NCBI RefSeq assembly: GCF_017355935.1
Contig: NZ_JAFIQT010000001.1
Span: forward strand, 1,612,001-1,676,000
DNA length: 64,000 bases
DNA from: Telluribacter humicola
GTDB taxonomy: Bacteria; Bacteroidota; Bacteroidia; Cytophagales; Spirosomataceae
Direction of reading: 5' to 3'
The position numbers and the translations under genes were made by a program. The notes below the pieces were generated by a model. That model was given only the letters and a program-made list of their open reading frames with translations, was not told where the DNA came from and ran no database searches. Every line of letters begins with the position of its first letter. The stretch's first letter is position 1. Positions 8,039 through 33,829 of the stretch are shown here, one piece after another.

Positions 8039-8140
8039 GGGTTTGGAATAAATTAAAATACTTTCAAAGTTTGGAAATCCCCGGCAGGATTGCAACCCTG
8101 TATAGTACGAATATCAGCGAAGTTTCTGATATAGAGTTGC

Positions 8141-9313
8141 TCAAAAAACGAGTCCCAGTAAGAGGCCACCCAGGATGATGAGGTAGGAGGGAACGCGGGT
8201 AAAGTAAAGAATGAGCAGGGTACCTACCACCGTAAGCAGGGGCTGTATCTGCGTCGCCATGGGCTGAAACAGGATAATAGCGGCGGCTATGGTCAGTCCG
8301 CAACTGGCCGCGTGGATACCATCCAGCGAAGCCCGGATACCCCGGTACTTCTTCAGCTGGTCCCAGAAACGGTACACAAAAAAGATCAGGAAGGTACCCG
8401 GAAGAAAAATAGCGACCGTGGCTATAATAGCTCCCAGTATCTGGCCGCTGATGCCGTATTCCTGCATGGACATACCACCCACGTAGGTAGATATAGAGAA
8501 AACCGGCCCCGGTACTACCTGTGTGAGGGCCATACCGGACAGAAACTCCTGCCGGGTCAGGTAGTGCTTAAATACCACAAACTCGTTATAGAGCATCGGG
8601 ATCAGTACCTGTCCGCCCCCAAATACCAAACTACCGTTGCGGTAGAAATTCTCGAACAGACGTACGGGTAGCGATCGGGTAATGGCACCCAGTGACGCCG
8701 CTGCCACCAGTACTCCCAGCCACAGGAAGAAGTTGGCCCACTCGATGCGGAGCGGCTCTTTGTCCATGACCTGATGCTGGCGGTAGTTGAGTGAAGCCAC
8801 CACTCCACCGATCAGGATGAGCAGGGGCGTCACGTAGGGGGAGGGATACAAAAGGGTAGCTGCCGTAGAGAACAGAACCAGTACCCATCCCTGTATGCCA
8901 TGCACTACTTTCTGGGTGATACGATACCCGCCAAACATCAGGAAGGCCACCGCCATGGGGCCTACAAACCGGGTAAAGGACAGGGATATATTATTGACTT
9001 CCAGGTAATGTGTGCCAATGGCCGCCAGGGTCATAAGTACCATGGCCGGGAAAGACCAGACCAGCAACGTAAGGTAAGCCAGGTTGGGACCGCCAATCTT
9101 GAAGCCCAGCGCCGTGACGGTCTGGGTAGAGGTAGGGCCGGGAAGTATCTGGCAGAGCGCCTGCAGTTCGAGGAGTTCTTCCTCGGTGAGGTAGCCGCGC
9201 TTTTGTACGAGTCGTTCCAGCATCATCATCAGGTGTACCTGAGGTCCGCCAAAAGCCGTACAGGCAAGTAGCAGGATGTCTCTCAGATAAATGATATACC
9301 GGAACTTCCGCAT
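8141..9313 (-). CDS. chrA: ChrA-type chromate transporter (CHR family)
   Basis: A 390-residue polytopic membrane protein with two homologous halves, the layout of the long-chain CHR family. Each half carries the family glycine/proline motif: FGGPQVH with LPGPTSTQT in the first, and FGGGQVLIP with VVPGPVFSIST in the second. Family members expel chromate, but many homologues have unproven substrates, so chromate export is an inference. It lies upstream of the GH3 gene on the same strand with a 102-bp gap and no obvious functional link. Confidence 0.88.
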   Translation of the reverse strand: MRKFRYIIYLRDILLLACTAFGGPQVHLMMMLERLVQKRGYLTEEELLELQALCQILPGPTSTQTVTALGFKIGGPNLAYLTLLVWSFPAMVLMTLAAIGTHYLEVNNISLSFTRFVGPMAVAFLMFGGYRITQKVVHGIQGWVLVLFSTAATLLYPSPYVTPLLILIGGVVASLNYRQHQVMDKEPLRIEWANFFLWLGVLVAAASLGAITRSLPVRLFENFYRNGSLVFGGGQVLIPMLYNEFVVFKHYLTRQEFLSGMALTQVVPGPVFSISTYVGGMSMQEYGISGQILGAIIATVAIFLPGTFLIFFVYRFWDQLKKYRGIRASLDGIHAASCGLTIAAAIILFQPMATQIQPLLTVVGTLLILYFTRVPSYLIILGGLLLGLVF

Positions 9314-9355
9314 TAATAAGTGGGGTAGTGGGAATAGTCTGTAAAAATGGTAAAA

Positions 9356-9392
9356 AAAGAACTTCCTGCGTAGTATATGCAGGAAGTTCTTT
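9356..9392 (-). terminator. Hairpin terminator between the oxygenase and chrA genes
   Basis: A perfect 14-bp inverted repeat (AAAGAACTTCCTGC and its complement) with a 9-nt loop, flanked by an A-run that gives U-rich RNA on the minus strand. It follows the oxygenase stop at 9446 and separates that gene from chrA. Confidence 0.8.
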
Positions 9393-9445
9393 ACGAAAAG
9401 GCAATATTCTTTAACAAGACACAGCTTGTATTAAGACAGCTGCGC

Positions 9446-10402
9446 TTATTTTTTCAAACCAAGTTCACGCAGACGCTCATCCAGGAACTCACCGGCCGTC
9501 ATGTCCGTGTATAGCTTGGGATGTTGCTCATCGATACAGCTTTCCAGCGAAGTCAGGTTCATATCGCCACGAGGGTGCATAAAGAAAGGAATCGAGTAGC
9601 GCGAAGTACCCATCTTTTCACGCGGTGGGTTCACCACGCGGTGGATGGTAGACTTAAGCTTGTGGTTGGTGAGGCGGTCGAGCATATCTCCTACGTTCAC
9701 CACGATCTGGTCGGGCAGGGCTGTGATAGCGATCCACTCGCCGTCACGACGCAGCACTTCCAGACCTTCCGCACTGGCTCCCATCAGCAGCGTAATGAGG
9801 TTGATATCACCGTGAGCGGCAGCGCGTACAGCTCCCTCGGGTAGCAAGTCCGGATTTTCGATGGGGAAGTAGTGCAGCGCCCGCAGGATGCTGTCCCCGT
9901 TGCGTACTTTGTCTTCGAAGTAGTCCTCGGGTAGTTCCAGGTAGATGGCAATCGCCCGCAGAAGGGTCTTGCCCGTATTTTCGAAGGTACTATATACCTG
10001 CTGAGTATACCTCTGGAATTCAGGTACCTCCTCCGGGAATATATTCTTGAACATAGTACCTTCGGGATCAGGCTGACCTACATGGTAAAACTCCTTCAGG
10101 TCGGCAACTTTGAAGCCCTTTGCGGTTTCTTTGCCTTTCCCGATATAGCCGCGCTGACCGTGCAGTTCCGGAAATTCGTATTTCTTTTTGACTTCTTCGG
10201 GTTGTTTGAAAAACCGCTCCACCGATGAGTAGAGATTGTGGCGGAGTTCTTCATTCAATCCGTGGTTCTTAATGGCCACGAATCCAATGTTATTAAAAGC
10301 AGCACCCAGGTCTGCTACAAATTTCGCTTTTCGCTCCGGATCACCCGAGGTAAATTCGGCCAGATCGAGCGAGGGTACTTTATCCAGCAATGCTTGTTCC
10401 AT
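9446..10402 (-). CDS. Isopenicillin N synthase-like 2-oxoglutarate/Fe(II) oxygenase
   Basis: A 318-residue cytoplasmic non-haem iron oxygenase. The N-terminal DIOX_N region is followed by the 2OG-Fe(II) core, with the iron ligands in AAHGDINLIT (HxD, about residue 196) and the distal His in KLKSTIHRVVNPP. The co-substrate-binding RxS motif is in SRYSIPFF. The family includes isopenicillin N synthase, ACC oxidase and many bacterial proteins of unknown substrate, so the exact reaction cannot be read from sequence. The gene stands alone between a terminator and a divergent upstream region. Confidence 0.88.
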   Translation of the reverse strand: MEQALLDKVPSLDLAEFTSGDPERKAKFVADLGAAFNNIGFVAIKNHGLNEELRHNLYSSVERFFKQPEEVKKKYEFPELHGQRGYIGKGKETAKGFKVADLKEFYHVGQPDPEGTMFKNIFPEEVPEFQRYTQQVYSTFENTGKTLLRAIAIYLELPEDYFEDKVRNGDSILRALHYFPIENPDLLPEGAVRAAAHGDINLITLLMGASAEGLEVLRRDGEWIAITALPDQIVVNVGDMLDRLTNHKLKSTIHRVVNPPREKMGTSRYSIPFFMHPRGDMNLTSLESCIDEQHPKLYTDMTAGEFLDERLRELGLKK

Positions 10403-10575
10403 AGTAGTAATTTTTTACAAATTTCAGGACAATCTGTTGTTTATGCAACTATAACTTGAGGCAGTACCGAAGAAGGAAATCTGGTGGGAGGATTAACAAA
10501 GAGCATAAGCCAGATAGTGACCCCTGGAAGTCCCTTTCTCTCCTTCGCCTTTTCCTCCCTTCCTCCTTCCCAATG

Positions 10576-10592
10576 TTAACAATTTGTGAACT
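10576..10592 (+). promoter_or_regulatory. TTAACA-N5-TGAACT direct-repeat element upstream of the TPR-HTH gene
   Basis: Two hexamers spaced 11 bp apart (TTAACA and the weaker TGAACT) lie 38 bp before the first start codon of the regulator gene. The 11-bp spacing resembles PhoB/PhoP-type boxes. It is listed because a better copy occurs at 12322-12338, before the receptor gene of the same locus. This is a speculative site. Confidence 0.3.
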
Positions 10593-10629
10593 TACCGGCT
10601 GCCGTATGGGAAATGGCTAATTTGCGACA

Positions 10630-12315
10630 ATGAATCAGCCCGTTACTGCATCCGTGTTACGTTTTGTTTACAACACCCGAGGCCTTGACATGTTTTGGAT
10701 GAGGTCCCTGCTCATGGTCTTTTTAGCCGGAATCTTAACCACAAGCATCGCCGCCGGGAGCCCTCTCTCCATCAATTATCGCCTGGAAACAGAAAAAGCA
10801 GGGGCGGAGGAGCGCCCGGATTCATTACTGCTGCAGCTTCGTAAAAACTACGCCCGGGCGGTCAGCGATAAGAAGGAGGTAGAGGCGGCGCGCTACCTGC
10901 ACGAGATGGGTCGGGTCATGTACCAGACGGGTTACTATCCGCAGGCGCTGGACTACTACCAGCAGGCCGAGAAGCGATTCAGGGAGCAACAGCAGGATGA
11001 GCACCTGGCCCGCAACCTCAACGACCAGGGACTGCTGTACTACTATAGCCATCAGCCGGATCAGGCCCGCCAGTACTATGACAAAGCCCTGGCTATCTAC
11101 CAGCAGAGAGGGGACCGGGCAGGACGGGCCGAGACACTAGGCAAAATAGGACATCTCTACGAAAAACAGCAACGCTACGACAGGGCCTTCCACCTACAGC
11201 GTCAGGCCCTGGCCGATTATCAGCGTGTAGACCACCAGGCAGGTACCGCCAAGATCTACGAAAATCTGGGCAGTATATATGAGGATCTGGAGCAGTACGA
11301 CTCAGCCTACGTGAATTATAGCAAAGCCCTGCTGATCAATAAAAAGAATGGCAACGAAATAGCTCAGATCGAAATCCTCAACAACCTGGGAGATGTACTT
11401 CGCAAAACGGGTCGCTATCGTCAGGGAATGGCTTACAGCTGGCAGGCCCTGGCGCTGGCTCAGCAAAAGGGGGTACGCTATCAGCTTACGAGTGCCTACA
11501 ATGACCTGGCTAAAGGCTATAACCTGCTCAACCGTAACGACAGCGCTTACTACTACCTCTCACTGAGCCGCAGGTACCAGACTGATATTTATTCAGAAGA
11601 GGCCAATAAGCAGATGGCTCTGCTCCAGACGCTGTATGATCTGGAAAAGAAAGACAACGAAATAGAGAGCCTGACCCACGAGCAGGAGCGGGCCCGGCTC
11701 ATTACGGGGTCGGTGGTACTGATCGTGCTATTAGTAGTTGTTGTTGGGGGATTAGTTATCAGCCGCCAGCGTCTCAAGCTCAAAAACGAGCAGGTGCTCC
11801 GCAGCCAGAACGAGGCCCGGAACCAGCTCATGTTGATGGAGCTGAAAAACAAAAAGCTGGAAGAGGAGTCGCTGAGGCAGCAGCTGGAAGTAAATGCCAA
11901 GGGGCTCACCTCCCATACATTGCACCTGATCGAAAAGAATCAGTTTCTGGACGGCCTGCGTAGTACCATGGAGTCGATGGTAAAGGAAGAAAAGCGTGAC
12001 CAAAAAAAGCAGCTGAAGCAGCTCATCGAACAGATCCAGCAGAACATCACCCATGACGATCACTGGAACGAGTTCAGGACTGTTTTTGAGCAGGTACACC
12101 AGTCGTTTCTGACCCGGCTGCAGCAGCAGTGCGACAACCTTACCACCAACGATATTCGCCTAGTAGCGCTCATCCGCATGAATCTTGACTCACGCGATGT
12201 GGCTACGCTACTCGGTGTCTCGACCGATAGCCTCAGGGTAATACGGTACCGCCTGCGCAAAAAACTTAACCTCCCCCAGGGCGATAGCCTTTCTGCCTAC
12301 ATCCAGTCCATCTGA
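10630..12315 (+). CDS. TPR-repeat membrane-anchored protein with C-terminal helix-turn-helix (putative regulator)
   Basis: A protein of up to 561 residues. After a signal-like N-terminus come six or so tetratricopeptide repeats (about 60-340; for example YPQALDYYQQAEKRF and PDQARQYYDKALAIY). One transmembrane helix follows (about 355-377, LITGSVVLIVLLVVVVGGLV), then a long coiled coil and a C-terminal LuxR/GerE-like helix-turn-helix (LTTNDIRLVALIRMNL, VATLLGVSTDSLRVIRYRLR). Bacteroidota have many such TPR-HTH proteins, thought to sense envelope signals and control neighbouring genes. The start is uncertain: ATG 10690 or 10699 would place the signal peptide exactly at the N-terminus. It lies directly upstream of the receptor-phytase genes, which it may control. 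Confidence 0.8.
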   Translation: MNQPVTASVLRFVYNTRGLDMFWMRSLLMVFLAGILTTSIAAGSPLSINYRLETEKAGAEERPDSLLLQLRKNYARAVSDKKEVEAARYLHEMGRVMYQTGYYPQALDYYQQAEKRFREQQQDEHLARNLNDQGLLYYYSHQPDQARQYYDKALAIYQQRGDRAGRAETLGKIGHLYEKQQRYDRAFHLQRQALADYQRVDHQAGTAKIYENLGSIYEDLEQYDSAYVNYSKALLINKKNGNEIAQIEILNNLGDVLRKTGRYRQGMAYSWQALALAQQKGVRYQLTSAYNDLAKGYNLLNRNDSAYYYLSLSRRYQTDIYSEEANKQMALLQTLYDLEKKDNEIESLTHEQERARLITGSVVLIVLLVVVVGGLVISRQRLKLKNEQVLRSQNEARNQLMLMELKNKKLEEESLRQQLEVNAKGLTSHTLHLIEKNQFLDGLRSTMESMVKEEKRDQKKQLKQLIEQIQQNITHDDHWNEFRTVFEQVHQSFLTRLQQQCDNLTTNDIRLVALIRMNLDSRDVATLLGVSTDSLRVIRYRLRKKLNLPQGDSLSAYIQSI

Positions 12316-12321
12316 GTGCGC

Positions 12322-12338
12322 TTAACATTGACATAACA
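12322..12338 (+). promoter_or_regulatory. Pho-box-like direct repeat TTAACA-N5-ATAACA
   Basis: Two near-identical hexamers, TTAACA and ATAACA, are spaced exactly 11 bp apart just after the regulator stop and upstream of the TonB receptor/phytase genes. Pho boxes of PhoB/PhoP response regulators have this one-turn direct-repeat layout. A phosphate-starvation box would fit a phytase locus, but no Bacteroidota consensus was checked. Confidence 0.35.
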
Positions 12339-12365
12339 GTATCGTAATACAAAGATAATGGCTCC

Positions 12366-12472
12366 TTGTTAACGCAGGTGGCGCTTGTAGATCAGGTAGT
12401 TAAGTGCTATTTGTTACGGTTGTTAACGCTTTGTTTATGGTAGGTAACCCGATGTTGCCTGTTTGTTAACGC
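12366..12472 (+). repeat. Three copies of TTGTTAACGC upstream of the TonB receptor gene
   Basis: The decamer TTGTTAACGC occurs at 12366-12375, 12420-12429 and 12463-12472, in a 262-bp gap that holds no gene. Its GTTAAC core is palindromic and also occurs upstream of the TPR-HTH gene (10575-10580). The copies could be operators for the local regulator. Confidence 0.5.
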
Positions 12473-12577
12473 TCCTGATTTGGAGCACTGCCCCTACTGT
12501 ATTCACCTTCGTGCTGTCGTTTGACACCCGCCCCTGCTCAACGGGTCGGGCTATGGTTAAAAAAATAGATTGCACTA

Positions 12578-15334
12578 ATGGCACGTACTCCTTTACTCCT
12601 CCTACTTCTGTGTTTGCTTGTTGGAAGCGCCTCGTCGCAGGTACTCCGGGGGAGGATTGTGGAAGCCGAAACTGGTGAGCCTATAGTAGGCGTCACGCTA
12701 CTTCTCGAAAATACCAGCTACCACGACGTCTCCGGCCTGGACGGCTCTTTTGCCATTGCTAATCTACCCAAAGGCGACTACCGGCTTGTGGTCCGGCACG
12801 TATCCTATGCATCCCAAACGCTGGATGTGAAGGTACCTATGCCACAGGCTCAGCCACTTAATTTGTCCCTGGCACCGGCCGTGTACAGTACCCTGAGTGA
12901 AGTAGCCGTGGTAGGAAAACGGGACGGCGCTTCCGAAACGACCGCCCGCTCCATGGAGCGCAACGCCAGTCAGGTCCTAAATATCGTATCGGGCAAAGCC
13001 ATTGAGCTTTCGCCCGACCTGACGGTAGCCAACGTCATTCAGCGGGTATCGGGGGTATCGGTAGAGCGTAACAGCAACGGGGACGGACAGCACGCCATCC
13101 TGCGCGGCATGGACAAACGCTACAACTATACCCTGGTCAACGGCGTAAAGATCCCCAGCCCCGACAACAAGTACCGCTACGTACCGCTCGATATATTCCC
13201 GGCGGAGCTGCTGGATCGCCTGGAAGTGGTAAAGGCCCTGACCCCCAATATGGAGGGTGACGCTGTGGGTGGAGTCATCAATATGGTGATGAAAGACGCT
13301 CCTGATCACCTGGTGATATCGGGCAACCTGGCTACCGGCTACAATGAGCTGTTCATGCAGCGTCCCTTCACCAGCTACGACCACCGTAACATACAGTCTC
13401 GGTCGCCCTACGAGCGGTTTGGCAACCAGTATAGTGCTACACCAAAGGATTTCTCTAATGCAGCGGTTACCTACCGCTCGCAGTCGCCCCTGCCCAACCT
13501 GGTAGGAGGCCTTTCAATCGGCAATCAGTTCCTGAACCATAAGCTGGGGGTGCTGGTGGCCGGAAGCTTCCAGAATACCTACCGGGGGAGCAACAGTCTG
13601 TTTTTTGACTTCGAAACCGTGGATACCCTGCGCGGCGTCACCCTTAATAAGATGCGGGAGCGCGAGTACTCGGAGCAGCAGCGGCGCTACGGCCTGCATG
13701 CCAAAGTAGAATACCGCTTTAACGAACGCCACCGCCTGGAGTGGTACAACGCCTACATGAACCTGACCAACATTCAGGTCAGGGATCAGAAAACCACCCA
13801 ACTCACCATTGGAGGCTATGATCCGGTGCTGGGCAACGCTACCCTCGGCTACTCGACCCGCTCCCGCCTGACGCGCCAGCAGATCCAAAACAATACTCTG
13901 CAGGGCCAGCACCAGTTGTGGGATGCCCTGATGCTTCGCTGGTCGGCGGTGTACTCGCTGGCTACCAACGAGGAACCCGACAACGTAACGGTACCGCTGG
14001 TGGGTATTCGCGAAAACTTCCTGGAGCGCCGTACTACCATTGACGATGCCTCGCGCCGCTGGGAACATAATACCGACCGTGACCTGGCTGCCTATCTTAA
14101 TCTAACCTATACCCGCAAACTGGGTGAAATGGCTACTGAGTGGTCGGTAGGAGGACTATATCGTGATAAATCCCGCACCAACTTCTACAACAACTACCAG
14201 CTACGCCCTGCCAACCTGTTTGCCCGTTACGGGGAAGACTTTACGGAGTACTCGCAGATCCAGTGGACCATCCAGAACCCGCGCGGAGCGGTAGCCACGG
14301 CCCTCAACTATGACGCTGCCGAAACTATTCAGGCCGGGTACCTGCAGTTCAAGGGACAGGTCCATAATCTGGAAGTACTGAGTGGGGTACGGGCCGAGGC
14401 CACTGATCAGGGCTACACGATGAAGTTCCCCATCGGCGAGGGACGCCCTGCCAGCAGCCAGGTATATACCGACTGGCTCCCCAGCCTGCACCTGACGTAC
14501 AAGCTACTGGGACATACCAACCTGCGGGCTTCCTACTTCCGATCTATTAACCGCCCGGGCTTTTTTGAGATTGTTCCCTATCGCATTGTCAACGAGGAGT
14601 ACCAGGAGCGCGGGAATCCGGATTTGAGACGGACCATCGCTGACAACCTGGACCTGCGCTACGAGCGATACCCCAGCACGTCAGAGCAATTTATGGTAGG
14701 TGTTTTCTATAAATCCATCAAAGACCCCATTGAGTATACCCTGCAGCGCGACGCCATCCGGGGGCAGGACCAGTACTATTCGCCCGGCAACTTCGGTAAC
14801 GCGGTCAACTACGGCCTGGAGGTAGACTACATCCGGTACCTGCGCCGGTGGGGCATCAAGGCCAACTACACCTATACACACTCTACCATCACAACGCTCA
14901 AGTCAAAGCGCATTCGTAACGAGAGCGGCGACCTCGAGACCATCCTGGTCAACCAGACCCGGCCCCTGTTCGGACAGTCGGCGCACGTGGCCAACCTGAC
15001 GCTGCTCTTCAAGGATCCCCGTAGCCAGCTAGACGCCCAGCTGGCCGCGGGCTACACCGGCGACCGCATCAATACTGTATCGCAGTTTGTGGATAACGAC
15101 CTGTGGCAGAAGGGATTTGTACAGGTGGATGCATCGCTGGAAAAGCGACTGGGCAAGGGCTGGAGCCTTTTTGCCAAGGCCAATAACCTGCTCAACACGC
15201 CCATGGAGGTGTACATCAACAACGTAAGCGCCCGCAATGACGGCATTCCGTTCCAGAAGGGAAGCCAGCGCACCCTGATCCGGCGCGACTACTACCAGCG
15301 CTCCTACATCCTGGGCGTACGCTACAAACTTTGA
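12578..15334 (+). CDS. TonB-dependent outer-membrane receptor (phytase-linked)
   Basis: A 918-residue outer-membrane transporter. It has a signal peptide (MARTPLLLLLLCLLVGSASS), then a CarboxypepD_reg-like domain (about 21-105), a plug domain (about 120-230, with AILRGMDKRYNYTLVNGVK and GDAVGGVINMVMK) and a beta-barrel ending in the aromatic C-terminus YILGVRYKL. The plug belongs to the Caulobacter-type TonB receptors rather than SusC, and no SusD partner is nearby. It is followed 47 bp later by a beta-helix lipoprotein and then by a beta-propeller phytase. Phytases of this class are known to sit next to TonB receptors, so uptake of phytate, inositol phosphates or phosphate-metal complexes is the likely role (inference). 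Confidence 0.9.
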   Translation: MARTPLLLLLLCLLVGSASSQVLRGRIVEAETGEPIVGVTLLLENTSYHDVSGLDGSFAIANLPKGDYRLVVRHVSYASQTLDVKVPMPQAQPLNLSLAPAVYSTLSEVAVVGKRDGASETTARSMERNASQVLNIVSGKAIELSPDLTVANVIQRVSGVSVERNSNGDGQHAILRGMDKRYNYTLVNGVKIPSPDNKYRYVPLDIFPAELLDRLEVVKALTPNMEGDAVGGVINMVMKDAPDHLVISGNLATGYNELFMQRPFTSYDHRNIQSRSPYERFGNQYSATPKDFSNAAVTYRSQSPLPNLVGGLSIGNQFLNHKLGVLVAGSFQNTYRGSNSLFFDFETVDTLRGVTLNKMREREYSEQQRRYGLHAKVEYRFNERHRLEWYNAYMNLTNIQVRDQKTTQLTIGGYDPVLGNATLGYSTRSRLTRQQIQNNTLQGQHQLWDALMLRWSAVYSLATNEEPDNVTVPLVGIRENFLERRTTIDDASRRWEHNTDRDLAAYLNLTYTRKLGEMATEWSVGGLYRDKSRTNFYNNYQLRPANLFARYGEDFTEYSQIQWTIQNPRGAVATALNYDAAETIQAGYLQFKGQVHNLEVLSGVRAEATDQGYTMKFPIGEGRPASSQVYTDWLPSLHLTYKLLGHTNLRASYFRSINRPGFFEIVPYRIVNEEYQERGNPDLRRTIADNLDLRYERYPSTSEQFMVGVFYKSIKDPIEYTLQRDAIRGQDQYYSPGNFGNAVNYGLEVDYIRYLRRWGIKANYTYTHSTITTLKSKRIRNESGDLETILVNQTRPLFGQSAHVANLTLLFKDPRSQLDAQLAAGYTGDRINTVSQFVDNDLWQKGFVQVDASLEKRLGKGWSLFAKANNLLNTPMEVYINNVSARNDGIPFQKGSQRTLIRRDYYQRSYILGVRYKL

Positions 15335-25410: not shown

Positions 25411-26388
25411 ATGCAAGATAGTATACGTACTACGGATGAAGCCCATTCATCCAGAAGAAGCTGGCTTAAGGCGACTGCCCTGGCCGGAGCCGCCGTACTA
25501 GCCGGTCAGTCAACCCAGGCTGAGGCCACTGCTGCCCCTGCCGTGGCGCCACCACCTGCCAAAAGGATCCCATTGGCGGTATCCACCTACTCATACTGGC
25601 ACTTTCAGGAGCAGAAGTACCCCATCGAAAAAGTGATCGAAAACGCGGCTCGTCTGGGCTTTGAAGGGGTAGAGATCCTGCACCGCCAGATGAAGAACGA
25701 AACCATTCCGTACATGAATAAGCTCAAGCGTCTGGCGTTTGACAACGGACTGGCCCTGCCGATGCTTTCGATTCACCAGAGCTTTGTACAACCCAAAGCC
25801 GAGGACCGCAAAAAAGACATTGAGCATACTAAGCGCTGCATCGATCTGGCTACCCAGATGGGCATACCCGCTATCCGTATGAACACCGGAAGCTGGCGTA
25901 CCGTCAAGCGCGATGCCAACTACTACAAGACCGGTCAGGAGCCGCCTATTGAAGGCTATACCGATAAAGACGCCATCCAATGGTGCATAGATTCTTTGGG
26001 CGAATGTCTGGTAACGGCCGAAAAAGCCGGTGTGGTGCTGGCCATCGAAAACCACTGGGGACTATCCTCCAACATCGACTACCTGCTCGAAATATATAAG
26101 CCACTCGCTTCATCGCCCGCTATGGGGATGAATGTCGATACGGGCAACTTCGTAGGTGACCCTTACTCACAGTTTGAGCGCCTGGCTCCCTATGCTACTA
26201 TCGTACAGGCCAAGACCTACTACGGCGGAGGTCACTTCTACGATCTGAACCTGGATTACAAAAAGATAGCGAACATCCTGCGTAAGGCCAACTTCAAAGG
26301 CTACGTGTCCCTGGAAATGGAGGGTAAAGAAGATCCCGAAACGGCAGTGCCCAAGAGCCTTAAGGTACTTCGTGATGTATTTAGCTGA
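25411..26388 (+). CDS. Secreted sugar phosphate isomerase/epimerase family TIM-barrel protein
   Basis: A 325-residue AP endonuclease-2/xylose isomerase-like TIM barrel. The N-terminus has a Tat-like signal ([19 protein letters not shown], Arg15-Arg16), suggesting periplasmic location. Barrel motifs include [12 protein letters not shown] (metal-ligand Glu), [21 protein letters not shown] (Glu) and [12 protein letters not shown] (Asp), the usual divalent-metal site. Relatives act on free or keto sugars as epimerases, isomerases or lyases. Next to a GMC dehydrogenase and DUF1080 domains it is a candidate for handling a 3-keto sugar, which is inference. It starts 106 bp after susD, beyond a hairpin. 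Confidence 0.85.
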
Positions 26389-26459
26389 TCATTCCTGACC
26401 TAATACTAATGATAAGATCCATCGGGTCAGGTACCGGATGCTTAAACTACTAGTGCTAC

Positions 26460-26996
26460 ATGAAAAGACGATCCGCTATAAAAAGCCTGGGGCTGGCACT
26501 GGGAGGACTAGTGAGTCTGCCTGCCTGGGCTTCCAACTGGACTCCCGAATCGGTAGGTCCGGCTACTGCGCTTTCTACCGGTGAAGAGGCCCTGCTGGCC
26601 GAGCTGGTAGAAGCCATCATTCCCCGGACTACCAACGCCGCCGGTGTGGTATCGCCCGGTGCCAAAGAATTAGGAGTACACCAGTTCGCCGCCCGCATGA
26701 TCAGGGACTGCCTGGGCGAGCCGGCACAAGCCAGCCTGAAAGAAGGTCTTGTTTCCACCGATAAGCTTTCCAACCAGACGTACCAGAAAGGCTTTGCAGC
26801 CCTTACTCCCAAGGAAAAGGTAGCAGTATTGACCTCCATGAGTAACTCAGCCGATGCTACAACAAAGGGTTTTGTCAGTATGATCAAAAATTTGACGATC
26901 CGGGGCTATACCAACTCGGAGTACTACATGACCCAAGTACTCAAGTACAACATGGCCCCCGGCTACTACCACGGCTGCGTACCTGTAGTGCAATGA
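26460..26996 (+). CDS. Gluconate 2-dehydrogenase subunit 3 family protein (small subunit, Tat-exported)
   Basis: A 178-residue protein of the Gluconate_2-dh3 family. It starts with MKRRSAIKSLGLALGGLVSLP, a twin-arginine-type signal, and carries the family pattern EALLAELVEAIIPRTTNAAG and GAKELGVHQFAARMIRDC, ending YYHGCVPVVQ. In related dehydrogenases this small subunit pairs with a GMC flavoprotein and carries it through the Tat pore. The GMC gene 133 bp downstream has no signal of its own, so the two products very likely form one periplasmic dehydrogenase. Confidence 0.9.
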   Translation: MKRRSAIKSLGLALGGLVSLPAWASNWTPESVGPATALSTGEEALLAELVEAIIPRTTNAAGVVSPGAKELGVHQFAARMIRDCLGEPAQASLKEGLVSTDKLSNQTYQKGFAALTPKEKVAVLTSMSNSADATTKGFVSMIKNLTIRGYTNSEYYMTQVLKYNMAPGYYHGCVPVVQ

Positions 26997-27021
26997 CCAG
27001 TGACCAGTGACCAATGAGTGA
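26994..27021. repeat. Heptanucleotide tandem repeat at the end of the small-subunit gene
   Basis: TGACCAG, TGACCAG, TGACCAA and TGAGTGA follow one another. The first copy begins with the stop codon TGA of the small-subunit gene. It is a short 7-bp-period simple repeat in the 132-bp gap before the GMC gene. Confidence 0.75.
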
Positions 27022-27128
27022 TTTAGTGAATGAGAGAATAAAACAACAATCACAACTCATTAACTAAATAGATCATTCAGAATTCAATATTCAACATCGC
27101 ACCGGCGACCCGGTCAGAATTTCAAGAC

Positions 27129-28847
27129 ATGTCTTATTTCAATATAGATTCTATAAACGAACGTACTTTCGATGCCATCGTAATCGGCTCCGGGATCAGT
27201 GGGGGATGGTCGGCCAAAGAACTGACGGGGAAAGGGCTGCGTACGCTGGTACTTGAGCGGGGGCGTGAGGTAAAGCACGTCACCGACTACCCTACTACCA
27301 TGAAGCAGCCGTGGGAGTTTGACCACCTCGGTCAGCTTCCCAAAACGCTCAAAGATGCCAATCCCATCCTGAGCCGTGCCGGTGCGTGGGCGGAAGATTC
27401 AGAGCATTTTTTCGTCAAAGACAACGAGCACCCTTATATCCAGGACAAGCCATTTGACTGGATTCGGGGCTACCAGACGGGTGGTAAATCGCTGATGTGG
27501 GCGCGGGGCACCCAGCGCTGGTCGCAGTACGACTTCGACGGACCTGTACGTGATAGCTATGCGGTGGAGTGGCCCATTGGCTACAAGGATATCGCCCCCT
27601 GGTACAGCTACGTAGAGAAGTTTGCGGGTATATCAGGAAATAAAGACGGTTTGCCCCAGCTACCCGATGGGGAGTTTCTGCCGCCGCATGAGCAGTCGTG
27701 CGTGGAGAAGCACTTCACGAAGGAGATGGCGAAGCATTACAAAGGTGCCCGCCCGGTCATCATCGGCCGCTGCGCGCACCTGACCAAGCCCCAGCCCATC
27801 CATATTGAGCAGGGGAGAGGCCAGTGTATGAACCGTAACCTGTGCCGCCGGGGCTGCCCGTACGGAGGGTACTTCAGCAGTAACTCGTCTACACTGCCCT
27901 GGGCGGCCAAGACTGGTAAGCTCACCATGCGTCCCGATTCGGTGGTACACTCTATCATTTATGACGAGCAGAAGGGGAATGCCGCGGGCGTACGGGTCAT
28001 TGATGCCCATACCAAAGAGATGACCGAGTACTATGCTAAGATCATTTTCGTGAATGCGTCGGCCTTGAACTCCAATCTGATCCTGCTGAACTCTACCTCC
28101 AGCCGCTTCCCTAACGGATTGGGTAACGACAATGGCCTGCTGGGGAAGTACATCTCTTTCCATAACTTCAGGACGACCATCAGCGCCGAATACGAAGGGC
28201 TGCTGGACTCGAAAACCGAAGGCATTCGTCCGAATAGTAGCTACATACCCCGCTTCCGCAACGTGTTCAAGCAGGAGACCGACTTTCTGCGTGGCTATGC
28301 AGCCGGTTTTGGAAGTAGCCGCATGACATACAGCGATCAGGAGGGTTTTGGGGAAGAGCTGAAAGCCAGCCTGATGAACCGGAAGTTTGGCAACTGGCGC
28401 GTCAACTCCTGGATGATGGGCGAAACCATACCCAAGGAAAGCAACTTCGTAGCGTTGGATTCACAGCAAAAGGATGCGTGGGGAGTGCCTCTGCTACGTA
28501 CCTCGGTAGCCTACGACGACAACGACGAAAAGATGATCCGCGACTTCCACGAGCAGATGACCGAGATGCTGACCGTTGCCGGATTCAAGAACATTCAGAC
28601 CCACGAGAAGCCCGACAAAGCGCCCGGACTGGATATTCACGAAATGGGTGGGGTACGTATGGGTAAAGATCCGAAGACATCGCTTTTGAATAAGTGGAAC
28701 CAGATCCATACCTGCAAAAACGTATTCGTAACGGATGGAGCCTGTATGACTACCAATTCTACCCAGAATCCATCCCTGACCTACATGGCTATTACGGCGC
28801 GTGCCGCCAACCATGCCGTGGAAGAATTAAGGAAAGGGAATCTGTAA
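27129..28847 (+). CDS. GMC-family FAD dehydrogenase, candidate glycoside 3-dehydrogenase large subunit
   Basis: A 572-residue flavoprotein. FAD binds at AIVIGSGISGGWSAKEL (about 16-32) with LVLERG after the next strand. The catalytic pair is His504 in HEMGGVRMG and Asn547 in TQNPSLT, equal in position to the His/His or His/Asn pair of GMC enzymes. A cysteine cluster, Cys233, Cys239 and Cys243 (QCMNRNLCRRGCPYGG), may hold an iron-sulfur centre as in related membrane dehydrogenases. There is no signal peptide, consistent with Tat export together with the small subunit encoded upstream. GMC/small-subunit pairs include gluconate, fructose and glucoside 3-dehydrogenases. The DUF1080 neighbour favours C3 oxidation of a glycoside. 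No cytochrome subunit is visible nearby. Confidence 0.9.
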   Translation: MSYFNIDSINERTFDAIVIGSGISGGWSAKELTGKGLRTLVLERGREVKHVTDYPTTMKQPWEFDHLGQLPKTLKDANPILSRAGAWAEDSEHFFVKDNEHPYIQDKPFDWIRGYQTGGKSLMWARGTQRWSQYDFDGPVRDSYAVEWPIGYKDIAPWYSYVEKFAGISGNKDGLPQLPDGEFLPPHEQSCVEKHFTKEMAKHYKGARPVIIGRCAHLTKPQPIHIEQGRGQCMNRNLCRRGCPYGGYFSSNSSTLPWAAKTGKLTMRPDSVVHSIIYDEQKGNAAGVRVIDAHTKEMTEYYAKIIFVNASALNSNLILLNSTSSRFPNGLGNDNGLLGKYISFHNFRTTISAEYEGLLDSKTEGIRPNSSYIPRFRNVFKQETDFLRGYAAGFGSSRMTYSDQEGFGEELKASLMNRKFGNWRVNSWMMGETIPKESNFVALDSQQKDAWGVPLLRTSVAYDDNDEKMIRDFHEQMTEMLTVAGFKNIQTHEKPDKAPGLDIHEMGGVRMGKDPKTSLLNKWNQIHTCKNVFVTDGACMTTNSTQNPSLTYMAITARAANHAVEELRKGNL

Positions 28848-28898
28848 GTAGGAATATACGTTGTGTAACAGACAGTAAGAGACATGTATACAATTCGG

Positions 28899-28934
28899 AG
28901 GCTCTCTGTTAGACGGAGAGCCTTTATTTTTTAA
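28899..28934 (+). terminator. Rho-independent terminator after the GMC gene
   Basis: AGGCTCTC pairs with GAGAGCCT around a short loop and is followed by a T-rich stretch (TTTATTTTTT). It separates the dehydrogenase pair from the Gfo/Idh gene. The 70 bp after it are AT-rich and presumably hold the next promoter, though no clear TAnnTTTG was found. Confidence 0.8.
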
Positions 28935-29004: not shown

Positions 29005-30279
29005 ATGAAAGAAGAAAAGAAAACGTCCATTGGGAGACGTGACTTCCTCAAAGGCTCACTGGCTACAGTAGCCGCGTTTTCCATTGTTCCCCGGCATGTA
29101 TTAGGTAAAGGCTACCTGGCCCCGAGCGACCAGCTTACCAAAGCGATTGTAGGTGTGGGCTCTATGGGTAGAGGTCACATTCCCTACGCTGGTACCCGGG
29201 TTGTAGCCCTATGTGATGTAGACCGTGGCCACCTTAAGCAGGCTGCCGGTATGGTGGGCAAAGACGTCAAAACATTCAGCGACTATCGGGAGCTGATCCA
29301 GCTACCCGAGGTGGATATTGTACACGTAGCGACTCCTCCTCACTGGCACGGAATCATCGCGGCCGATGCCGCCCGGGCCGGTAAAGATGTGTGGTGCGAA
29401 AAGCCCATGACCCGCACCATTGGCGAAGGAAAGCGCCTCGTGGAAGCGGTACAGCAGCACGGCCGTATATTCCGACTGAACACCTGGTTCCGCTTCGACG
29501 CCAACTTCTACGGTATGAATACTACCGTAAAACCTATCAAGAAACTGGTTGATAGCGGACTGCTGGGATGGCCCCTCAAAGTGACCGTAAGCCGTCACAC
29601 CGGCTTTGACTGGAAGTTCTTCTGGGTAGGACAGACCAACCTTGATCCGCAGCCCGTACCCGCCGACCTCGACTACGAGATGTGGCTCGGTCCCGCGCCT
29701 TACAAGCCGTACCACCCGCACCGCGTACACGGTACCTTCCGGGGCTACTGGGATTACGACGGAGGTGGTCTGGGTGATATGGGTCAGCACTACCTCGACC
29801 CGATCCAGTACTTCCTCGGTAAAGATCACACCAGCCCCGTTAGCGTAGAGATAGACTCCCCTCAGCAGCATACCGATGCCGTAGGTACTTGGCGCCGTAT
29901 CGAGTACACCTACGCCGATGGCTGTAAGATCGTACTGGATGGCGAAGCGAAGGATGCCAATGTACCTTATATCGAAGGACCTAAGGGTAAGCTATATCCT
30001 AACTTCCGCTCGGATATACCTGATCTGGAAAAGAAACTGGCGGCCTTCCCCGATCCTGAGCCTCAGGTGACCGACTTTGTAGAAGCCGTAAAAGAGCGTA
30101 AGAAATTTGCCCTGAACGAAGAGAACGGACACCGCTCGTGTACCCTCGTCAACATGGGACTGATCGCTCTGCGTCTGGGACGTTCGCTGAAATTTGATCC
30201 CGTTAAGCAGGTGTTTATTGATGACGAAGGGGCCAATCGCCTCATCGATCAGCCAATGCGCGCTGCCTGGACCATCTAA
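29005..30279 (+). CDS. Tat-exported Gfo/Idh/MocA family oxidoreductase
   Basis: A 424-residue NAD(P)-dependent sugar oxidoreductase. The N-terminus holds a twin-arginine signal (GRRDFLKGSLATVAAFS), so it probably works in the periplasm with a tightly bound cofactor. A Rossmann motif follows (AIVGVGSMGRGH) and the family active-site Lys in WCEKPMTRTIGEG. The C-terminal domain has GGGLGDMGQHYLDP, with the His near the substrate. Relatives in Bacteroidota act on glycosides and keto sugars, often swapping hydride with a bound NAD. It is placed directly before the DUF1080 protein (32-bp gap), so the pair probably works on the same compound. Confidence 0.92.
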   Translation: MKEEKKTSIGRRDFLKGSLATVAAFSIVPRHVLGKGYLAPSDQLTKAIVGVGSMGRGHIPYAGTRVVALCDVDRGHLKQAAGMVGKDVKTFSDYRELIQLPEVDIVHVATPPHWHGIIAADAARAGKDVWCEKPMTRTIGEGKRLVEAVQQHGRIFRLNTWFRFDANFYGMNTTVKPIKKLVDSGLLGWPLKVTVSRHTGFDWKFFWVGQTNLDPQPVPADLDYEMWLGPAPYKPYHPHRVHGTFRGYWDYDGGGLGDMGQHYLDPIQYFLGKDHTSPVSVEIDSPQQHTDAVGTWRRIEYTYADGCKIVLDGEAKDANVPYIEGPKGKLYPNFRSDIPDLEKKLAAFPDPEPQVTDFVEAVKERKKFALNEENGHRSCTLVNMGLIALRLGRSLKFDPVKQVFIDDEGANRLIDQPMRAAWTI

Positions 30280-30311: not shown

Positions 30312-33300
30312 ATGAAGAAAATAGTATATACGATTGCTGCCCTCTGTATGCTCCATACGGGCGTGATGGCACAGCGTGAAGATAAACGAACGGTTACCAC
30401 CCGCGTGGCCGATGCGCTGGCTATGATGCCGGCTAAGAACGCCGCCCAGCTTACCAAGAACATGGAGGAGCTGGCAGCCCTGGGTAAGCCCGGTCTGGTA
30501 CAGATGGCCAGTATGCTGGTGCCTGCCGAAAAAGGCGATAACACTGCGTTGGAATACGCACTGGGAGGCTTTACCTACTATGTCACCCAGCCCGGCAAAG
30601 AGGCCCTCAGGAAGATGGCTGCTGAAGCCTATGGCGAAGCACTTGGCAAACTGACTGATTCCCAGAACAAGGTATTCCTGATCTACCAACTGCAGACCGT
30701 GGGTAAAAATGAGTCGGTACCTGTATTGCAGTCGTATCTGAAAGACGAGAAGTTGAGCGGTCCTGCCGCCAGAGCGCTGGTAAAAATCGGTACACCGGAA
30801 GCCGGACAGGCGCTGCTAAGCGCCCTGAATGGTACTTCAGGAACAACGCAGCTTTCCCTGGTGGAGGCCCTGGGCGACAGCCGTTTTACTCAAGCGGCCC
30901 CGGCTATCGAAAAGCTGGTAGATGCTCAGGATAATAATCTTCGTAAAGTAGCCCTGTACTCATTGGCTAGCATCGGTGCCCCTTCATCCGAAAAGATACT
31001 GGCGCAGGCGGCTGACAAAGCTACCTTCATCTACAATGAAGCCAACGCTACCGCCGCTTACCTGTACTACCTGAGCCGTCTGGCTGAGGGGGGTAACCGT
31101 CCTGTTGCGGAGAAAGCTGCGGCTGACCTTCTCAAGAAATCAGCCGGAGCCAATCAGGTACATACCCGTACCGCTGCCCTCAAATTATTAGTGGATATGC
31201 AGGGCGAGGCCAGCGTGCCTACCCTGATCAGTGCCATGGGCAGCGACAACGCAGCTTACCGGGCAGCCGCTCTGAAGTACGCTCAGGCGCACACCGGAGT
31301 CGCCAGTACCGCTCTTTGGCTGAAAGCCCTGAAGAAAGCCAAACCAAACGTACAGGCCGAGATCATCAACATGATGGGCATGGCCGGTGCGAAGGACGCT
31401 CTGCCTGCCATTACGAAAGCAATCAATAGCAAGGATAATGGTGTAAAGCTGGCCGCTATCAAAGCTGCCGGCCGCGTAGGGCAGGACGCTGCTATCAATG
31501 ACCTGATGACGGTGCTGAAGAAAGGCAGCGCTGAGGAGGTACAGGCCGTTAAGAACGCTCTCCTCACCATGAAGGGTAATACCGTTGTGGACAAGGTAGC
31601 GGCAACGCTGCCTTCCATGCCAGCTGGTGCGCAGGCGGCCCTCATTGATGTGCTGGCAGCTCGTGCCGCGGATACCAAAATGGACGTCGTACTCAAGCAG
31701 CTCAATAGCTCGGATGCCGGTGTGAAAAAGTCAGCACTGGCTGCTCTGAAGCACATGGCTACTCAGAAGGACCTGCCGACCCTGTTCACGCTGATGGACG
31801 CTTCCGGCCAACTCAGCGAGGTTCAGGAGTTCCAGAACGCGGTAATCGCGGCGGTAAAAGGAGCCGGTACCCAGGCCCAGCAGGCGGATCTGATCCTGAA
31901 GCAGATGAACAGCACGGCTGCCGATAAAAAGAATCGTTACTATCAGGTACTGGCCAGCGTGGGGGGAGACAAAGCCCTGCAAACGGTAGTATCAGCCTAT
32001 AACGGTGGTGATGCCGCTTCCAAACTGGCTTCACTGACTGCTCTCACTAACTGGACCGATGCCAGCGCAGCCAATGAGCTGTACACCATCAGCAAGAACA
32101 CCACCAACGCCGAGCACCTGGATCAGGCGGTACAGGGGTATGTAAAGGCTGTAAGTAAAGCGAAGGAAAATCCGGTACAGAAGGTACTGAAGCTGCGTAA
32201 GGCGCTGGAAGTAGCCAAAACTTCGGCTCAGAAGGAGATAGTCCTGAAAGAGCTGCAACGCAACCGTACTTTCAACGCCATGCTGGTAGCCGGTGACTAC
32301 CTGGACGATCCTCAACTGCAGCAGGCCGCGGCACAGGCCGTTATGAACATTGCCTTAGCTAACAAGGAGTACCAGGGAGATGTAGTACGTAACCTGCTGA
32401 ACAAGACCATCGCGGTACTGAAAGGTCAGGATAGTGAGTATCAGAAGGAGTCGATCCGTAAGCACCTGGCCGAAATGCCTAAGGGTAAAGGCTACGTAGC
32501 CATGTTCAACGGCAAAGACCTGACCGGCTGGAAAGGTCTGGTGGAGAACCCCATCAAGCGCGCCGCCATGCATCCCGATACCCTGGCTGCCAAGCAAGCC
32601 AAGGCCGACGCTAAGGCCAAGAACGACTGGATCGTACGGGATGGAGAACTCGTATTCACCGGGCACGGCGATAACCTGGCTTCGGTGAAGAAGTACGGGG
32701 ATATCGAAATGTACGTAGATTGGAAGATTCAGAAAGACGGTGACGCCGGTATTTATCTGCGGGGTACCCCACAGGTGCAGATCTGGGATACGGCCCGCGT
32801 AAAAGTAGGTGCCCAGGTAGGCTCAGGTGGCTTGTACAACAACCAGAAGCACGAGAGCAAGCCCCTCAAAGTAGCCGACAATGCCGTAGGCGAGTGGAAT
32901 ACCTTCTATATCAAAATGATTGGTGACCGCGTAACGGTACATCTGAACGGTGAACTGGTCGTGGACAACGTACCTCTTGAAAACTACTGGGACCGCAAGC
33001 TGCCTATCTTCCCCGAAGAGCAGATCGAGCTGCAGGCACACGGTACGGAGGTAGCCTATCGTGATATCTATGTCCGCGAACTGCCCCGTACGGAGCCTTT
33101 CAAGCTGAGTCAGGAAGAGCAGAAGGAAGGCTTTAAAGTACTCTTCGACGGTACCAACATGCACGAGTGGACTGGTAATACCAAAGACTATGTTATTGAG
33201 GATGGTAATATAGTCGTCTATCCTGACAAGGGTGGACGGGGCAACCTCTTCACCAAGGACGAGTACAGCGACTTCGTATACCGTTTTGAATTCCAACTAA

Positions 33301-33773
33301 CACCCGGAGCCAACAACGGTCTGGGCGTACGTGCTCCTATGGATGGAGACGCTGCCTATACTGGTATGGAGCTTCAGATCCTGGACAACGAAGCACCCAT
33401 CTACAAAAACCTGCACGAGTACCAGTTCCATGGTTCAGTATATGGTGTGATACCCGCCAAGCGTGGGTACCTGAAGCCAACGGGCGAGTGGAACTACCAG
33501 GAAGTACGTATGCAGGGCTCCAAGATTCAGGTAATCCTGAATGGTACGACCATCCTGGACGGTGATATCGCCGAAGCCAGCAAGAATGGTACCCTGGACC
33601 ACAAAGACCATCCCGGCCTGAAAAGAACATCCGGACATATCGGTTTCCTGGGACATGGCGACGTGGTTCGTTTCCGTAACATCCGGATCAAAGATCTGAG
33701 CAAGCAGCAGGAAGCAAAGACTGAGACAGCAAAGCCTGCCAAGTCAAAAGCGAAGACCAGAGCCAGCAAATAA
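30312..33773 (+). CDS. HEAT-repeat protein with two C-terminal DUF1080 (3-keto-disaccharide hydrolase) domains
   Basis: A 1153-residue exported protein (signal MKKIVYTIAALCMLHTGVMAQ). Residues about 30-720 are a long alpha-solenoid of HEAT/Armadillo-like repeats, seen as recurring patterns such as PAARALVKIGTPEAGQALL and GVKLAAIKAAGRVGQDAAI. Two DUF1080 beta-sandwich domains follow. The first begins near 724 (MFNGKDLTGWKG, with a long insert) and the second near 936 (VLFDGTNMHEWTG, then MELQILDNEAPIY). DUF1080 proteins hydrolyse 3-keto-glycosides. The final tail is Lys/Ala-rich. Many solenoid-DUF1080 proteins exist, but two catalytic-type domains on one solenoid may allow scaffolding or two substrates. 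A terminator follows, so it closes the locus. Confidence 0.9.
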   Translation: MKKIVYTIAALCMLHTGVMAQREDKRTVTTRVADALAMMPAKNAAQLTKNMEELAALGKPGLVQMASMLVPAEKGDNTALEYALGGFTYYVTQPGKEALRKMAAEAYGEALGKLTDSQNKVFLIYQLQTVGKNESVPVLQSYLKDEKLSGPAARALVKIGTPEAGQALLSALNGTSGTTQLSLVEALGDSRFTQAAPAIEKLVDAQDNNLRKVALYSLASIGAPSSEKILAQAADKATFIYNEANATAAYLYYLSRLAEGGNRPVAEKAAADLLKKSAGANQVHTRTAALKLLVDMQGEASVPTLISAMGSDNAAYRAAALKYAQAHTGVASTALWLKALKKAKPNVQAEIINMMGMAGAKDALPAITKAINSKDNGVKLAAIKAAGRVGQDAAINDLMTVLKKGSAEEVQAVKNALLTMKGNTVVDKVAATLPSMPAGAQAALIDVLAARAADTKMDVVLKQLNSSDAGVKKSALAALKHMATQKDLPTLFTLMDASGQLSEVQEFQNAVIAAVKGAGTQAQQADLILKQMNSTAADKKNRYYQVLASVGGDKALQTVVSAYNGGDAASKLASLTALTNWTDASAANELYTISKNTTNAEHLDQAVQGYVKAVSKAKENPVQKVLKLRKALEVAKTSAQKEIVLKELQRNRTFNAMLVAGDYLDDPQLQQAAAQAVMNIALANKEYQGDVVRNLLNKTIAVLKGQDSEYQKESIRKHLAEMPKGKGYVAMFNGKDLTGWKGLVENPIKRAAMHPDTLAAKQAKADAKAKNDWIVRDGELVFTGHGDNLASVKKYGDIEMYVDWKIQKDGDAGIYLRGTPQVQIWDTARVKVGAQVGSGGLYNNQKHESKPLKVADNAVGEWNTFYIKMIGDRVTVHLNGELVVDNVPLENYWDRKLPIFPEEQIELQAHGTEVAYRDIYVRELPRTEPFKLSQEEQKEGFKVLFDGTNMHEWTGNTKDYVIEDGNIVVYPDKGGRGNLFTKDEYSDFVYRFEFQLTPGANNGLGVRAPMDGDAAYTGMELQILDNEAPIYKNLHEYQFHGSVYGVIPAKRGYLKPTGEWNYQEVRMQGSKIQVILNGTTILDGDIAEASKNGTLDHKDHPGLKRTSGHIGFLGHGDVVRFRNIRIKDLSKQQEAKTETAKPAKSKAKTRASK

Positions 33774-33799: not shown

Positions 33800-33829
33800 A
33801 AAGCCCGGTGACCCTTCACCGGGCTTTTT
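33800..33829 (+). terminator. Rho-independent terminator closing the 3-keto-glycoside locus
   Basis: AAAGCCCGGTGA pairs with TCACCGGGCTTT around a CCCT loop and is followed by T residues. Confidence 0.9.

Follow-up and report, generated by a model that had tools for sequence, protein, structure and literature searches.

Levoglucosan is used by way of oxidation, elimination, hydration and reduction, and this is the work of four separate enzymes, LgdA-LgdB1-LgdB2-LgdC (PMC7676230). A lyase of Bacteroides thetaiotaomicron, whose locus is not named in the excerpt, needs H275 for the hydration of 2-hydroxy-3-keto-glucal (H275N form, PMC13273386). BT2157 is 290 aa long (PMC11003636) and its residue 275 is the histidine of a QDHG motif (index 250 of the 3osd sequence, whose chain ends at about residue 290), so this lyase is probably BT2157. 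D3dgpA of the Gfo/Idh superfamily holds near-equimolar NAD(H) and follows a ping-pong scheme with 3-oxo-glucose as the oxidant that re-oxidises it (PMC11239390). Here we consider a locus in a 64,000-nucleotide stretch of Telluribacter humicola (the window). It holds a Gfo/Idh/MocA oxidoreductase gene and, directly after it, an open reading frame (ORF) of 1153 aa with an ATG start (30312-33773, + strand). This ORF joins a HEAT-repeat solenoid to two DUF1080 domains (PF06439, 3-keto-disaccharide hydrolase), called D1 and D2 below. Judging from sequence, the 1153-aa protein is probably an exported, soluble periplasmic enzyme that takes part in cleaving 3-keto-glycosides, with Gfo/Idh as its partner.

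A Foldseek search with the model of the entire protein puts 4jqt (BT3469) first. Tandems of the BT3469 type also have two PF06439 domains per chain, with Gln at the motif position of the first, Glu in the second and the histidine in both (30/30 loci). A Gfo/Idh-type ORF is found in the ~1.5 kb flanks of 25 of the 30. The phylum draw of 296 genomes yielded 68 matches, not all tandem, spread over 64 genomes, and the 30 loci are the best of these. These tandems have no other domain, whereas the window protein adds about 700 residues of solenoid. Their second domain comes from a clade other than that of D2. A single clade of the two is rejected by the approximately unbiased (AU) test (p-AU 0.006, for a group defined after viewing the FastTree tree). 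The Gfo/Idh ORFs next to them are not orthologs of the one in the window (best 134 bits against it). BT2157 (3osd, 8tda, 8rr2) shares the PF06439 fold, and D2 matches 8tda and 8rr2 with Z 22.8 and 2.5 A over 202 residues. BT2157 and the BT2156-BT2160 genes also share the QxHG histidine and Gfo/Idh neighbours with the window pair, but BT2157 is a single domain with no solenoid, and the window Gfo/Idh scores far below the cut-offs of the BT2158 and BT2159 families. Caulobacter LacABC and CCNA_01705 are similar in the proposed periplasmic oxidation and the DUF1080 protein (PMC9007349). They differ in using a LacABC-type dehydrogenase instead of the window's Gfo/Idh and in having a single DUF1080 domain. 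The logic of oxidation, elimination, hydration and reduction is that of the Lgd pathway. It takes four enzymes there and one polypeptide in GH4, and it would take two polypeptides here.

Layout of the protein and its pairing with Gfo/Idh

The original prediction described about 700 residues of HEAT-like repeats before two DUF1080 domains, which Pfam and an AlphaFold2 model bear out. The solenoid covers residues 28-721 (30393..32474, + strand), where the model has 40 helices of at least 4 residues. The protein scores 108.8 bits against HEAT_2 (cut-off 27.7), and HEAT score and fold class agree. D1 covers residues 727-925 (32490..33086) and D2 residues 936-1130 (33117..33701), both on the + strand, and the model has beta domains at 729-923 and 942-1128. 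PF06439 matches the whole protein with 275.4 bits over two stretches. The domains exceed the cut-off of 26.8 with 137.8 bits for D1 and 150.5 bits for D2, and by this small margin the second is nearer to the family, as had been predicted. The full model (28 sequences) has a mean predicted local distance difference test score (pLDDT) of 86.7 and a predicted template modelling score (pTM) of 0.59. This pTM is low, so the relative placement of solenoid, D1 and D2 is uncertain. Modelled by themselves over 416 residues, the two domains reach pLDDT 83.3 and pTM 0.79. We found no description of the HEAT plus DUF1080 layout in the open-licence literature; the one paper with both terms tabulates them as separate proteins.

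The upstream Gfo/Idh gene (29005..30279, + strand) scores 500.6 bits against PF19051 and 76 bits against PF01408. The nearest solved structures are 8tdf and 8tdh. K133, D258, H262 and D265, which we take to be its catalytic motifs, are invariant in 37/37 orthologs. It carries a twin-arginine (RR) motif at its N-terminus, as do 32 of the 37 orthologs. Two of the five others (L056, L061) apparently reflect start-codon calls and three (L107, L110, L141) have RK. The 1153-aa protein begins with a likely Sec-type signal peptide, MKKIVYTIAALCMLHTGVMAQ (30312..30374, + strand, residues ~1-21, its end set by eye from the sequence). Many of its orthologs also have hydrophobic N-termini ending in AQ, and residues 12-25 of the model have pLDDT <50. 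Both proteins look exported.

The pairing of the two genes was followed in 28 loci fetched by protein similarity (close relatives, all Bacteroidota by their titles), in a phylum draw of 296 Bacteroidota genomes and in a draw of 200 genomes from the window's family. In each genome only a limited set of candidates was scored (six in the phylum search for Gfo/Idh). Gfo/Idh is directly upstream in 26/26 loci with upstream sequence; L047 and L049 have almost none. All 61 full-length matches in the family have Gfo/Idh upstream on the same strand, with 36-164 bp between the matches. The conserved C-terminal part gave 31 family matches, 24 with Gfo/Idh beside them. Among the seven misses six ORFs run off the contig, and G501 shows a piece of Gfo/Idh at a contig end. 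Matches to D2 alone number 12. Five of them have Gfo/Idh alongside and belong to open frames 602-683 aa long, of which the one read (L068) is a solenoid plus D2. The other seven are G486, at a contig end, and six open frames of 235-292 aa.

A search from the Gfo/Idh side gave 94 Gfo/Idh matches in 93 of the 200 family genomes, and a DUF1080 match lies downstream of 90. Of the remaining four, G014 (for which locus L047 was used) is at a contig end and G492 has a frame start with a weak solenoid match. G510 and G507 have downstream sequence with no solenoid profile match before the contig end, which does not confirm absence. In the phylum draw a Gfo/Idh ortholog is found in 10/296 genomes at 583 bits or more (the next best is 211), and nine of the ten have an adjoining solenoid-DUF1080 gene (G000 and G031 by coordinates). 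The best reading is that the two genes form an operon. Inspection of 12 loci by eye showed no further neighbour shared by every one of them.

The solenoid and its variants

The original prediction allowed that the layout may be common, and this holds. It is found in full, in one ORF, in 18 of the 28 loci, and 101/200 family genomes have some match (at 1e-60, layout varied). The phylum draw has a match in 21/296 genomes at E 1e-40 or better, in various layouts. There is a 95% identical copy in Telluribacter sp. SYSU D00476 (Spirosomataceae by NCBI names). Eight loci have copies of 659-756 aa with a shortened N-terminal part and both domains. One of the last two is cut by a contig end. In the other (L055, 3831-7310) a break inside D2 leaves one ORF of 981 aa and another of 162 aa; this is a decayed copy or an assembly error.

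Elsewhere the parts are found in other combinations. L068, L098, L107, L110 and L141 have a solenoid and a single D2-type domain; D1 is missing and Gfo/Idh is kept. D1 stands alone in L105, L106 and L112, and D2 in L067, L069-L071, L099-L101 and L103 (L102 is cut by a contig end). A D1-type domain is joined to another DUF1080 domain on FG-GAP repeats in L108, L109 and L111 (the repeats were scanned in L109). The usual set is Gfo/Idh, a solenoid-related N-terminal part and a D2-type domain, while D1 is common and can be missing. Two side observations belong here. L112 (G258) has three DUF1080 genes in a row at 6267-8733, the middle one D1-type, and in L104 (G191, 8806-12582) a D2-type domain ends a PD40-amidohydrolase protein of 1258 aa.

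What does the solenoid do? Its structure matches are alphaRep, importin-alpha and beta-catenin (alphaRep 4zv6: Z 17.7, 6.3 A, 276 residues, 25% identity). With regard to a binding groove, most of its conserved residues lie on every second helix in the N-terminal half; some are polar or aromatic, but several are in our judgement structural HEAT positions. The original prediction proposed that it could be a scaffold for the neighbouring oxidoreductases. Gene linkage supports this for Gfo/Idh alone; the GMC gene further upstream has no match in the 27 loci besides the Telluribacter sister, within flanks of at most ~9 kb, several of them shortened by contig ends. We suggest, tentatively, that the solenoid docks the Gfo/Idh protein. 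Contact is best argued from the strong gene-level link between the two, although an operon would account for that link as well.

One can also imagine a solenoid that is a passive spacer or a wall-binding part, with the linkage to Gfo/Idh due to shared regulation or descent and no contact at all. We give this nearly an even chance. The solenoid is the least conserved part of the protein (relative entropy 2.15-2.50, compared with ~3.2 for the DUF1080 domains). The part before the first DUF1080 domain runs from ~250 residues (L063) to ~725, and its shortening does not go with a loss of Gfo/Idh. The eight loci whose copies are 659-756 aa long still have the Gfo/Idh gene, which means a large solenoid is not essential for pairing. 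Pfam HEAT has no match in 5/10 variants scanned and is below its cut-off in a sixth, the short forms often going unrecognised. Operon linkage by itself accounts for the adjacency.

Against a passive solenoid is the way that Gfo/Idh follows it from genome to genome. The phylum draw has 22 matches. Gfo/Idh is beside 8/8 that bear a solenoid (G206 counted from our own profiles only, as Pfam finds no HEAT there) and beside 0/14 solenoid-free D1 or D2 matches. For 12 of these 14 the neighbourhoods were read, G312 and G223 rest on the genome-wide search, and in G308 the match runs into a contig end, which leaves a D2 that is perhaps not standalone. Thirteen of the 14 are in genomes where no Gfo/Idh ortholog was found among the limited candidates scored. 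Four family genomes with a standalone D2 (G015, G017, G021, G034) also have no Gfo/Idh among the candidates scored. G432 and G487 carry both kinds, and there Gfo/Idh adjoins only the solenoid copy.

Two DUF1080 domains with different motifs

D1 and D2 were described as unlike in sequence, and they are 23% identical. D1 has Gln at the motif position (Q821-x-Q823) and D2 has Glu (E1020-x-Q1022), each fixed in 28/28 aligned sequences (the window and 27 of the 28 loci, the split ORF of L055 being omitted). H910 of D1 and H1115 of D2 are invariant in the same alignment, and both align with the residue-275 histidine of BT2157 (QxHG). This histidine is found in 24/24 D1-type and 33/33 D2-type domains and in 17/29 other DUF1080 domains, so its retention is not automatic. 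The E-x-Q position is Glu in 33/33 D2-type, Gln in 24/24 D1-type and Glu in 24/29 other domains. These counts and the FastTree tree omit four weak paralogs from the window's genome (L167-L170). D1 and D2 are about equally conserved, with mean relative entropies of 3.27 and 3.17 over 19 full-length rows. The prediction would have suffered from a degenerate domain, and neither looks degenerate. For D1 in particular that status is not supported, as its histidine and motif residues are kept in all 28 rows and all 24 D1-type domains.

The family as a whole is more varied. The window's genome has 26 PF06439 matches, 25 of them above the cut-off. In 20 further DUF1080 domains of this genome the QxHG position is histidine in 12, Glu in 7 and Asp in 1, which suggests more than one chemistry is possible in the family.

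By PDB titles, the structure matches of D2 include 9fbe and 8rr2 (3-keto-glycoside eliminase/hydratase) and 8v31 and 8tda (3-keto-2-hydroxy-glucal hydratase). D2 aligns to 3u1x with Z 25.7 and 2.1 A over 200 residues, and D1 to 4qhz with Z 21.4 and 2.2 A over 177 residues. The two domains had been proposed to be hydrolases with different preferences. Two apparently intact sites with differing roles remain a good description, but lyase or hydratase fits better than hydrolase, since the solved relatives of D2 are titled eliminase/hydratase.

D1 also has the predicted Lys/Ala-rich insert, which the model makes a helix pair (747-772). At this site 21/24 D1-type domains carry a segment of 33-38 residues, so the insert is a trait of the D1 subfamily. 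The three exceptions are the FG-GAP-fused proteins. The same site holds 7-21 residues in 59 of 62 other domains and 26-39 in the other three.

A recent internal duplication does not explain the pair, since D1 and D2 are only 23% identical and each clusters with standalone proteins. A very old duplication may still lie behind it. In the FastTree tree other families fall between D1 and D2. A mixture model on 67 of 86 rows (19 near-copies removed) does not reject D1 and D2 as one clade (AU test, p 0.448), and the support for the D2 branch is only 38. This better tree puts all Q-type domains on one side of one branch, with support 72. The three FG-GAP proteins have the same order, Q-type first and then E-type. 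We had considered several independent fusions in this order, and dropped the idea because all Q-type domains share one side of the branch. They may share one origin, which would mean repeated pairing with differing E-type partners more than repeated invention.

We argue that D1 and D2 both act on 3-keto-sugars. That they split elimination and hydration between them is quite possible, though short of likely. In another scenario both carry out one and the same reaction, each on its own anomers or sugars, and the pair widens the substrate range and divides no steps. D1 and D2 do belong to distinct subfamilies that are each found alone too. However, the Q-then-E order common to the three tandem designs read looks like a fixed pairing. 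This is a weak objection, as the Q side may have one origin, but we still consider the scenario rather unlikely. A purely carbohydrate-binding or regulatory D1, which lacks the Glu of E-x-Q and would leave D2 as the only enzyme, is less likely again. It would explain the Gln found throughout the D1 type and the five loci that do without D1 and retain a D2-type domain and Gfo/Idh. The fold is also that of CBM66-type lectin domains (4azz against the core model: Z 16.6, 2.6 A, 152 residues, aligned to D2). Against it, D1 is as conserved as D2, keeps the histidine in every D1-type copy and also exists alone.

A possible cycle and its setting

The cycle we propose would run as follows. The Gfo/Idh protein, exported by the twin-arginine (Tat) route, would oxidise C3 of the glycoside with bound NAD+. 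One DUF1080 domain would eliminate the aglycone to give 2-hydroxy-3-keto-glucal, and a DUF1080 domain would hydrate this to the 3-keto-sugar. The same Gfo/Idh would then reduce the 3-keto-sugar and regain its NAD+, so that it presumably closes the redox cycle. The net outcome would be glycoside hydrolysis in the periplasm by a two-gene unit with no free cofactor. With an oxidoreductase that could also carry out the final reduction, and with two sites of the lyase/hydratase type, the gene pair would hold what the cycle needs. In lineages where D1 is absent, D2 should manage both elimination and hydration.

A more ambitious version is a redox-closed machine of two polypeptides, in which the solenoid docks a cofactor-retaining Gfo/Idh close to a Q-type and an E-type site that carry out elimination and hydration in turn, and reactive keto-sugars are passed along without leaving. 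We regard this as unlikely on present evidence. If it were true, one could read the two half-reactions off the fixed Q-then-E order of the different tandem designs. In another protein of the window's genome (L154, G000:C24 near 14058-14657), a PQQ dehydrogenase propeller and a cytochrome c domain are followed by a fused DUF1080 domain. An oxidoreductase and DUF1080 in one chain fits physical coupling of the two steps.

Several points count against the proposed role. The loci where D1 is missing imply that the pair can do with a single DUF1080 domain. The Gfo/Idh protein scores 157.7 bits against NF058561 (BT_2158_fam), where the equivalog cut-off is 750. It is related and not a member, and with a score so far below the cut-off its substrate may differ. 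One phylum genome (G182; L140, 6257-7528) has a Gfo/Idh ortholog of 784 bits with no adjoining solenoid-DUF1080 gene; judged by eye, a peroxiredoxin-like gene comes next downstream. In Thermogutta, a DUF1080 protein has been described as an ordinary endo-glucanase active on xanthan (PMC10881899). One study found that deleting BT2157 or BT2158 caused no defect on raffinose-family sugars (PMC11501099). The biochemical evidence also stems from PF06439 subfamilies other than those of D1 and D2.

A terminator-like hairpin of 13 pairs lies before Gfo/Idh (28897..28925, + strand) and one of 12 pairs after the solenoid gene (33800..33827, + strand). These are the two strongest hairpins of the window, the next best stem having 8 pairs, and they enclose just the two genes. 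The whole window has 20 terminator-like sites, compared with 13.1 (standard deviation 3.8) in shuffles. Six gaps examined for the Bacteroidota promoter element TAnnTTTG gave no match. Sigma-70-like sites number 6, fewer than the 10.1 in shuffles.

Upstream, at 25411-28847, are a TIM-barrel gene (AP_endonuc_2) and then Gluconate_2-dh3 and GMC. The latter two recall the LacABC-type 3-dehydrogenase and might, next to the Gfo/Idh pair, offer another way into 3-keto-sugars. A SusC/SusD pair is also close by, and galactokinase and mutarotase genes lie downstream. The SusC/SusD pair, GMC and the galactose genes do not accompany the gene pair in most of the 28 loci. L042, L043 and L046 have SusC/SusD-type genes upstream, and L046 also has a hydroxyacid dehydrogenase, galactokinase and mutarotase set downstream. 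The GMC dehydrogenase is improbable as the enzyme partner in a lactose-type 3-dehydrogenase locus: the GMC and Gluconate_2-dh3 genes upstream, the galactose genes downstream and the cooperation proposed for LacABC and DUF1080 proteins in Caulobacter (PMC9007349) favour it, but GMC and Gluconate_2-dh3 have no match in 27 loci besides the Telluribacter sister L039 (flanks of at most ~9 kb, several cut by contig ends), and the 13-pair hairpin lies between GMC and Gfo/Idh. We therefore dropped GMC as a conserved partner.

The pair of Gfo/Idh and solenoid-DUF1080 genes matters beyond this locus. DUF1080 is abundant in the genome, yet few members have a reported role in the open-licence literature. 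Here a fixed partner gene, an equally fixed domain order and a simple motif difference mean that two genes and a handful of point mutations would be enough to test which domain eliminates and which hydrates. Closure of the cycle on bound cofactor, if it does occur, would account for the operation of an NAD-dependent pathway in the periplasm.

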